Part shown: positions 1 to 64,000 of the stretch, in pieces
How the letters are laid out: the number at the start of each line of letters is the position of its first letter
How positions within the stretch are numbered: the first letter of the stretch is position 1
Source: Planococcus sp. 107-1
Lineage (GTDB): Bacteria; Bacillota; Bacilli; Bacillales_A; Planococcaceae
Direction of reading: 5' to 3'
Assembly: GCF_021513255.1 (NCBI RefSeq)
Contig: NZ_CP090977.1
Coordinates: 2,170,001-2,234,000 of the forward strand
DNA: 64,000 bases
The notes under the pieces: generated by a model
What the model was told of the DNA's origin: nothing
What the model saw: the letters and a program-made list of their open reading frames with translations, nothing else
Databases searched by the model: none
Position numbers and translations under genes: made by a program

Positions 1-207
1 TTCTAGAATCGGCGGAGTCGCTATAATGATATCTTCTAGCCGCACTTTGTAATTTGGTTTGACGATTTCGCCGTTGACTTTGATGGCACCGTCTTTGACC
101 CAGTTCGCAATCTGCGAACGCGACCAGTCTTCATCCATAGCTGAAACCACTTTATCGATGCGTTCTCCAGCCATTTCTTCTGTAATTTCTAACGTTAAAT
201 CTTCCAT
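1..207 (-). CDS. RluD-family 23S rRNA pseudouridine synthase, N-terminal part (cut by window edge)
   Basis: Only the first 69 codons are present; the gene runs off the left edge. The fragment starts MEDLTLEITEEMAGERID and continues through an S4 RNA-binding domain (RSQIANWVKDGAIKVNG at about residues 30-46), as in the RluD/YlyB family, which isomerises uridines in 23S rRNA. The catalytic domain lies outside the window, so the target site cannot be judged. The ATG overlaps the lspA stop codon by one base (TAATG), so the two genes are translationally coupled. lspA-ylyB order is the usual Bacillales arrangement. Confidence 0.85.
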   Translation of the reverse strand, partial: MEDLTLEITEEMAGERIDKVVSAMDEDWSRSQIANWVKDGAIKVNGEIVKPNYKVRLEDIIIATPPILE

Positions 208-683
208 TAAGACACCTTTTTCTTTTCTTGTTTTTCGTCATAAATGACAAATATAATCATCAGCACAACGCCGACGGTCAATGCGGCATCCGCTACATTG
301 AATATCGGAAAATCATAATTGATGATCGGGATTAATACATCTACAAAATCGACAACTTCTCCACGGAGCATCCGGTCGATGAAATTTCCGACCGCTCCGC
401 CAAGGATAATCATTAAACTCAATTGGAATAATGGCTGCCCTTTTGCGTGTTTATGGAAATAATAAAGAATGCCGATAATAACCGCTATCGTAATGATGGC
501 GAAAAGCCACATTTTGCCTTCCAGCATGCCCCAGGCTGCCCCTCGGTTCCGGTGAGATAGCCACGCTAAATAAGGTTCAATTACCGGGATGCGCTCGCCT
601 AACTCCATATGTTTCAATACTAGCCATTTTGTCCACTGATCGGCTGCAACGATCAGCAATGCAATTCCATAATAAATAAACAT
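207..683 (-). CDS. lspA: Lipoprotein signal peptidase II (prolipoprotein signal peptidase)
   Basis: LspA is the membrane aspartyl protease that cleaves the signal peptide of diacylglyceryl-modified prolipoproteins before the lipobox cysteine. The 158-residue protein has four predicted membrane helices and the family signatures: ADQWTK near residue 14, NRGAAWG near 46, GNFIDR (Asp103) and FNVADAA (Asp132). The last two supply the catalytic aspartates. Length is normal. It lies downstream of ileS and overlaps the following rluD-like gene by one base. Its substrates in this window would include CtaC and the lipoprotein deacetylase at 59.1 kb, both with a clear lipobox. Confidence 0.96.
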   Translation of the reverse strand: MFIYYGIALLIVAADQWTKWLVLKHMELGERIPVIEPYLAWLSHRNRGAAWGMLEGKMWLFAIITIAVIIGILYYFHKHAKGQPLFQLSLMIILGGAVGNFIDRMLRGEVVDFVDVLIPIINYDFPIFNVADAALTVGVVLMIIFVIYDEKQEKKKVS

Positions 684-914
684 GTGTTTCCCCCGTCAAT
701 TCATCAGTCAGTTTATTTTAACACATCCCCCGATAAAAAAGTATGCGGGCGAAAGCATGCTTATTTTTTCTTACCAGAAGTGCGAGGTGGAAAGATCCTC
801 ATATGTTATCTAGTATTTTCATTTACTTCCCTTGAAGGTCGAAATACTTTCCACTCAATAATTTGGAAATAAAAACAGGAAGAACCTGATTCGGTTCTTC
901 CTGCTCTCTACCTA
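684..914. other. lspA-ileS intergenic region
   Basis: This 231-base gap holds the ileS terminator (871-903) at its right side and the lspA upstream region at its left. On the minus strand a possible -10 (TAAAAT) lies about 40 bases before the lspA start, but no convincing -35 at normal spacing is visible. The open frames here show no recognisable protein. Confidence 0.5.
871..903 (-). terminator. Rho-independent terminator of ileS
   Basis: On the minus strand an 11-bp perfect stem, CAGGAAGAACC with GGTTCTTCCTG, and a 6-base loop is followed by a T run. It lies 12 bases past the ileS stop codon. Confidence 0.9.
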
Positions 915-62854: not shown

Positions 62855-63832
62855 TTAGAACGTTAACACTTTCTTAGCTGTTTCTAGTATATCCTTCGAG
62901 TTTGGAAGCCAAACTTGTTCAGCTTGTGAGAATGGGAAAATAGAATCTGGAGCCGTTACACGCAATACAGGAGCTTCTAAACTCAAGATTGCACGGTCCA
63001 TGATTTCAGCTACAACGTTTGCAGCAATACCCGCTTGTTTTTGCGCTTCTTGGACAACCATTGCGCGCCCAGTTTTTTCTACTGAAGCGACAATTGCTTC
63101 AATATCCAAAGGCTGGATTGTACGAAGGTCGATCACTTCTGCAGAGTAGCCTTCTTTTTCAAGTTCTTCGGCCGCTTTCAAACTTTCTTGCACCATTGCA
63201 CCGTATGCAATAATCGTCAAATCTTTGCCTTCACGTTTAATATCCGCTTTCCCTAAAGGAATTGTGTAAGCTTCTTCCGGAACTTCCTGGCGGCCTGAGC
63301 GATATAATTTCAAATGCTCAAGGAAAATAACCGGGTCGTTGTCGCGGATTGCAGAAATCAACAAACCTTTTGCATCATACGGAGTTGACGGCACAACCAC
63401 TTTTAAACCTGGCTGTGAAGTCATCAGCAATTCTAGAGAGTCTGCGTGCATTTCAGGTGTGTGAACACCGCCGCCGAAAGGTGAGCGCAGTGTGATTGGT
63501 GCATTTAAGCTGCCGCCGCTGCGGAAACGCATACGCGCCATTTGGCCGCTGATTGAATCCATAACTTCATAAACAAATCCGAAAAACTGGATTTCGGGAA
63601 CCGGACGGAAACCTTGCAGCGCAAGACCGATTGCAAGGCCGCCGATTCCTGACTCAGCCAAAGGCGTATCGAATACACGGTCTTCACCGAATTCTTTTTG
63701 CAATCCTTCTGTCGCACGGAAAACACCGCCGTTATTTCCTACGTCTTCCCCGAAAACTAGTACATTTTCATCGTTTTGCATCTCTGTTTTCAGAGCGTCG
63801 GTAATTGCTTGAACCATAGTCATTTGTGCCAT
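62855..63832 (-). CDS. pdhB: Pyruvate dehydrogenase E1 beta subunit
   Basis: The beta subunit of the thiamine-dependent E1 component forms half of the active site. The 325-residue protein shows [20 protein letters not shown], the [19 protein letters not shown] segment and the transketolase C-terminal domain ([18 protein letters not shown]). It starts three bases after the pdhA stop and precedes pdhC by 28 bases. Confidence 0.97.
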
Positions 63833-63835
63833 CGC

Positions 63836-64000
63836 TTACTTCGACTCCTTTGCTTTGTAGATATCAAGTTGCTCTTGAACGTTGAATGGAACCTCTTCGT
63901 ACATGATTTCCAAAAGGTTAGTAACCGTTTGTTTCGGAGCACTATCGGCTTTTTTGACAGCCGCTTTAATTTCTTCTTTTGCTTTTTCAATTACTTCGTT
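63836..64000 (-). CDS. pdhA: Pyruvate dehydrogenase E1 alpha subunit, C-terminal end (cut by window edge)
   Basis: Only the last 54 codons are present: a charged helix ([19 protein letters not shown]) followed by [21 protein letters not shown] and the end KAKESK. This is the usual E1 alpha C-terminus. The stop precedes the pdhB ATG by three bases. Catalytic residues are outside the window. Confidence 0.9.

Follow-up and report, generated by a model that had tools for sequence, protein, structure and literature searches.

The frame breaks found in conserved genes of the genome analysed here (G000) are not themselves biology, and their distribution is probably a trace of biology. Very probably, they are long-read consensus errors, most of them miscalls at the word CCCGC methylated by the organism's own restriction–modification (R-M) system, with run-length errors making up the rest. 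We infer the methylation of CCCGC, the R-M enzymes as its source and the use of native-DNA nanopore reads from the sequence itself. An artefact of this kind is already known; as a by-product, it yields here a prediction of the site that an enzyme family recognizes.

Frame breaks in the window

The window, that is, the whole stretch of 64,000 nucleotides that was analysed, comprises bases 2,170,001–2,234,000 of G000, a single-contig genome of 3,513,248 bp. Its relatives belong to Planococcus/Planomicrobium, and for one of its genes the best named loci come from P. chinensis and P. glaciei. As the yardstick for breaks we used the closest congener, G008, which belongs to a species other than that of G000, is collinear with the window and shares 88.6–93.9% DNA identity with it per aligned block. 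A break was defined as a length difference from G008 that is not divisible by three and lies inside an ORF open in G008. In this region, G008 has 59 ORFs that reach 80 aa or more; we sought them in G000 and in five congeners, among which G006 yielded all 59 and G014, G009, G002 and G013 yielded 57 each.

The preliminary description of this DNA, made from its letters, had reported about twelve single-site frameshifts in ten conserved genes. The scan returned exactly 12 breaks in 10 of the 59 ORFs. The preliminary description had also proposed a comparison with the closest relatives, and in each of the five congeners the same scan gave 0 breaks; because of this difference (12 versus 0), the window breaks are far beyond chance or alignment noise. 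A length difference was present at all the positions listed earlier, except that the last break lies at 58756–58765, a few bases before the 58766–58767 given for it. All 12 break the frame as claimed, but two of them, at 50642 and 58274, are net changes of 2 nt and not of 1 nt.

Eight of the ten genes are on the minus strand. The gene of a YggS-type PLP protein (6218–6891; TIGR00044 matched in the intact congener ORF) is split into two frames at ∼6761, where G000 is 1 nt shorter than G008 and only CCCG occurs within 8 nt. The PBP2B/SpoVD-type transpeptidase gene (14613–16975; PF00905, PF03717 and PASTA in the intact congener ORF) is broken at ∼16787, with CCGC within 8 nt, and ftsL (16972–17330; TIGR02209) at ∼17250, in an A/T run that has neither CCGC nor CCCG nearby. 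The break in the acyl-CoA carboxyltransferase gene (21905–23454; PF01039) is at ∼22807, where either G000 or G008 has CCCGC, and that in the gene of cytochrome c oxidase subunit II (41992–43087; TIGR02866) is at ∼42165, also at CCCGC. The heme o synthase gene, ctaB (43142–44090; TIGR01473), is interrupted at an A run (∼43937) and typA (52012–53914, start approximate; TIGR01394) at a T run (∼53300), again with neither CCGC nor CCCG nearby. The pyruvate carboxylase gene (45357–48797; TIGR01235) is broken twice, at ∼45644 (CCGC) and ∼46020 (CCCGC). On the plus strand are a conserved unnamed gene (50460–50997, start approximate; an ORF of 179 aa in G008), which matched no Pfam or NCBIfam family and is broken at ∼50642 (CCCGC), and the Orn/Lys/Arg decarboxylase gene (57553–59019; PF01276), broken at ∼58274 and at 58756–58765, with CCCGC at both sites.

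When words within 8 nt in either sequence (G000 or G008) were counted, six of the 12 window breaks had CCCGC/GCGGG, two had CCGC/GCGG only, one had CCCG only, and the remaining three (17250, 43937 and 53300) had neither word and lay at short A/T runs. The earlier statement that most breaks lie in short homopolymers is correct only in part; eight of the 12 carry CCGC/GCGG, six of these in the longer form.

After each break, the protein resumes in another frame, as had been described, and does so at high identity. The restored lengths proposed for CtaB (305), TypA (615) and PYC (1146 residues) equal those of the G008 ORFs when the residues are counted manually from the probable start. In-frame stops were seen only in over-extended start regions or, at 50642, in a mis-called antisense ORF.

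Two further features of the window were observed. The segment 25212–26964, which contains a 524-aa ORF (25238–26812, minus strand), has no counterpart in G008, where the alignment closes up. A T-box leader (RF00230, 117.7 bits) is located at 3715–3932 on the minus strand and overlaps the 5′ end of a 970-aa ORF (915–3827, minus strand) as mechanically called; the true start of this ORF is probably further inside it.

Breaks outside the window

Base-by-base comparison with G008 covered ∼581 kb, or 17% of the chromosome, in two 400-kb blocks. In block 1 (2,020,001–2,420,000 of G000; 395 kb aligned), 81 breaks were inside G008 ORFs, and in the reverse direction only 3 were inside G000 ORFs but not inside G008 ones. 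Block 2 (1,620,001–2,020,000; 186 kb aligned), which served as the hold-out, gave 27 breaks versus 4 in reverse. Pooled, this amounts to 108 breaks over the 457 kb of coding interior that could be compared. The rates per kb of coding interior were 0.26 in block 1 and 0.19 in block 2, and between 0.20 and 0.41 in the 50-kb bins of block 1. The 81 events of block 1 were obtained with a 60-nt margin; among them are a change of −10 nt and what is probably an artefact of an ORF start (2034386, 2300214). With a 40-nt margin, block 1 gave 86 events (59 in the G008 ORF only and 27 in ORFs of both genomes) versus 5 in reverse; the first motif count used 79 of these, leaving out 7 that were close to an ORF end or whose ORF start was in doubt.

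Among the compared genomes, only the G000 assembly has the breaks, and they occur at a similar rate in the two blocks, which bears out the earlier view that the sequence, and not the organism, is at fault. Deletions and insertions, in contrast, are not about equal as had been stated: deletions prevail by 8 to 4 in the window and by 75 to 33 over the 108 events. The completeness of G000 is 94.28 (contamination, 4.11), whereas the 45 other congeners searched have values of 99–100. It is from this figure and the 17% sample that we regard the spread as genome-wide.

The breaks concentrate on CCCGC

Each enrichment test concerned one word, whereas the joint tally of CCCGC, CCGC and CCCG in either sequence consists of raw counts. 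In block 1, CCGC/GCGG was present within 8 nt, in the sequence as given, at 56 of the 79 events (8.6 expected), and CCCGC was present within 8 nt in G008 at 28 of the 79 (1.4 expected). In the hold-out block, CCGC accompanied 21 of the 27 events in the sequence as given, versus 2.9 expected (p = 7.9e-16), while GATC, CCGG, GGCC and CCTGG were without enrichment there (p of 0.24 or more). By the joint tally within 8 nt, 56 of the 108 events have CCCGC, 27 have CCGC only, 4 have CCCG only and 21 have none of these words; about 15 of the last group are at A/T runs, as judged by eye. In the event listing, the indels sit within the word or directly beside it.

In the pooled coding interior, CCCGC/GCGGG was the most strongly affected 5-mer, with 36 of 691 sites (692 in a second count), which is 5.2%, or 24.5 times the base rate. 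A general effect of G/C-richness was rejected, as all-G/C 5-mers without CCGC or CCCG within 3 nt were affected at only 6 of 4488 sites. Plain homopolymer error as the main cause was rejected likewise, since C/G runs of at least 3 nt outside CCCG stayed at the base rate (5/3514, 0.14%). At A/T runs, the affected fractions were 28/17206 for 3–4 nt, 10/2184 for 5–6 nt and 2/125 for 7 nt or more. The 4-bp word CCGC was discarded as the motif in favor of CCCGC, because CCGC with no C before it was affected at 22 of 4119 sites (0.53%) versus 5.2% for the 5-mer. This 0.53% is nevertheless above the base rate, as is the value for CCCG other than CCCGC (19/2003, 0.95%). CCGC or CCCG may carry a weaker effect of their own besides that of CCCGC; from inspection of the event listing by eye, substitutions specific to G000 may account for the excess outside CCCGC. 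Taken with the controls, these counts show that the error is motif-specific and systematic, and that homopolymer slips are not its main cause.

Substitutions at CCCGC showed no clear excess. The conservation of CCCGC in G000, 0.315 (n = 647), was the third lowest of the 16 all-G/C 5-mers, but the control G006 likewise had a low value (0.181; n = 72). G000 has 636 copies of CCCGC versus 847 in G008; as this ratio resembles that of other G/C words, it is uninformative as a test of avoidance.

A BpuJI-type restriction–modification locus

We searched for methyltransferases with PF00145 and PF01555. Of 20 genomes searched, 9, with G008 among them, have a gene of a C5 cytosine methyltransferase, and in G000 there are two, close together; PF01555, the N6/N4 type, gave no enzyme in G000. 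The two genes belong to a set of R-M genes, each with an uninterrupted frame, on the minus strand, outside the window, at 3143785–3147311 of contig C1 (locus L209, which is C1:3136001–3154000). In minus-strand order, the set consists of a first m5C methyltransferase (L209 10253–11311), a 467-aa BpuJI-type protein with the domains BpuJI_N and NOV_C (8829–10232) and another m5C methyltransferase (7785–8804). An asymmetric site often needs two methyltransferases, one per strand.

The BpuJI_N domain (PF11564) of the 467-aa protein was recognized with an E-value of 1.4e-82, and comparison with R.BpuJI in PDB gave 3e-16 directly and 2.8e-26 by profile. Among the 46 congeners, only G000 has BpuJI_N above the cut-off, and it is also the sole one with completeness below 99%. 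A search of the family and one of the order each covered 261 genomes. In the family, four genomes besides G000 exceed this threshold, but with partial matches of 25–32 bits, and a full match at E 1e-40 came from G000 alone, so that these searches gave no second genome with the enzyme in which the signal could be repeated.

Proposed origin of the errors and its alternatives

In the mechanism that we favor, the two m5C methyltransferases would place 5-methylcytosine on both strands of CCCGC/GCGGG. A base-caller untrained on the modified word would then drop or add a base alike in many reads, as precedents described in parts of PMC6591954, PMC10687267 and PMC12506013 suggest. As the misreading would be alike in many reads, the consensus and read-based polishing would keep it. 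The assembly length differs from that of the congener at the observed 5.2% of genic CCCGC sites, and the frames are broken there; about a fifth of the events would be run-length miscalls of the usual sort, most of them at A/T runs. Points against the scheme are that only this small fraction of the coding-interior CCCGC sites is affected and that CCGC without a preceding C and CCCG other than CCCGC also exceed the base rate.

The precedents share with G000 the concentration of errors on one short word. Nanopore errors specific to the Dcm motif, at modified bases, are described for Klebsiella in a section of PMC6591954. For Listeria, passages of PMC10687267 place the errors at GCAGC and GCTGG in strains that have a methyltransferase system, which the other strains there are described as lacking, and report that these errors are mostly mismatches, indels not being their source. 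For Neisseria, an excerpt of PMC12506013 gives 77 of 103 erroneous indels (74.76%) at or beside a methylated base, and for Salmonella the same excerpt has none of the indels accompanying methylation. Indels are therefore a documented but not a universal outcome. G000 differs from the Klebsiella, Listeria and Neisseria cases in that its errors are frame-breaking indels at CCCGC and that the link to methylation is drawn from sequence alone.

It is rather unlikely that CCCGC and homopolymers were simply a weak point of the base-caller or polisher, irrespective of their chemistry, the R-M system being coincidental. Many errors can indeed arise without methylation, since a nanopore Planococcus genome from a PCR-amplified, and thus unmodified, library still has 419 pseudogenes according to a passage of PMC12060695; the rates at A/T runs of 5–6 nt and of 7 nt or more, both exceeding that at 3–4 nt, also suit such a weakness. 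However, other C/G runs and all-G/C 5-mers are at the base rate, and, of the 46 congeners, the only one that has the BpuJI domain is also the one whose completeness is low. As to the amplified genome itself, P. koreensis (CP181055.1), the same passage of PMC12060695 describes it as nanopore-only, with a PCR library and fast base-calling; by analogy, many of its pseudogenes may be sequencing errors.

That a decaying or mutator strain truly carries these broken genes is very improbable. Beyond the sequence itself, with breaks private to G000 among the compared genomes, nothing speaks for it. Both ftsL and the division-type transpeptidase are expected to be essential, and we concur with the preliminary description that neither decay nor programmed shifting would be likely to break these two together with oxidase subunit II, heme o synthase and pyruvate carboxylase. 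The continuation of each protein at high identity in another frame also argues against real mutations, and breaks centred on one 5-mer are unlike the product of a mutator or of relaxed selection.

Still less probable are scars of self-restriction, in which the organism's own CCCGC enzyme would cut under-methylated sites and repair would leave small indels. The clustering of the indels on the presumed recognition word is what such scars would produce, and against them stands again the loss of ftsL and the division transpeptidase, which would not be tolerated. Moreover, the indels lie within or beside the word, whereas FauI and SmuI, which recognize CCCGC, cut 6 bp away, as stated in a passage of PMC4309577. 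Programmed frameshifting in the ten genes has a negligible probability, given the intact reading frames of the same genes in five congeners and the mixture of deletions and insertions, whose places and genes are unrelated to one another.

If the modified word is the cause, as in our preferred reading of methylated CCCGC, another round of polishing with these native reads would probably be no cure, while amplified DNA or short reads would be. The earlier conclusion that the sequence needs polishing was thus of the right kind; homopolymers, however, make up only a small part of the problem, and the same reads are unlikely to be enough for the polishing. In the window, 10 of the 59 genes are falsely broken. 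Extrapolation from the 108 events in 457 kb gives several hundred breaks expected in the chromosome, and the annotation would therefore carry false pseudogenes for essential functions.

Predicted specificity of the BpuJI-type protein

BpuJI (PDB 2vla, 5hlt) and the 467-aa protein have in common the recognition domain BpuJI_N and the equivalent of residue N67. The C-terminal part of the 467-aa protein is NOV_C. The N67 equivalent was kept in 121 of 121 rows of an alignment of the 467-aa protein with the best 120 of its 1945 homologues; a passage of PMC9240713 describes N67 of BpuJI as needed for DNA binding. D366, E380 and K382, a nuclease signature in the C-terminal part, were kept in all 121 rows of the same set as well, and may form the active site. 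BpuJI_N and NOV_C (DUF3883) were both present in 120 of these best 120 homologues. Among the homologues listed is P0035 from Salipaludibacillus keqinensis, an 810-aa fusion of a C5 methyltransferase with BpuJI_N and NOV_C; Sporosarcina sp. FA15 and Neobacillus sp. D3-1R are also named there.

BpuJI recognizes CCCGT, whereas CCCGC is the site expected for the 467-aa protein from the error motif. We considered a change of Q208 to R as the basis of this switch from T to C and dropped it, as the alignment of this region is ambiguous: Q208 is paired with R211 in one version and falls into an insertion in the profile-based one. The Type IIS enzymes FauI and SmuI share with the error motif the same 5-bp word; FauI is not among the names of the best 120 of the 1945 homologues.

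The errors propose CCCGC as the site for an enzyme family in which BpuJI is the only structure-solved member that we found. We see an even chance that they are a methylome read-out, such that BpuJI_N plus NOV_C proteins would be CCCGC-specific restriction enzymes and the adjoining C5 pair would methylate both strands of CCCGC/GCGGG. If so, other native-DNA nanopore genomes with this system should show the same indels at CCCGC and the same false pseudogenes, and the specificities of unstudied R-M systems would be readable from the errors of public assemblies.

Beside the R-M genes is a two-gene unit on the plus strand (L209 3947–7311, which is C1:3139947–3143311 of G000). Its 590-aa protein has weak AAA ATPase matches below the Pfam cut-off and matches PADLOC PDC-M26A (E = 2e-46), and its 532-aa protein carries PDDEXK_7 and DUF2357 domains; the unit may be a second, McrBC-like restriction system.
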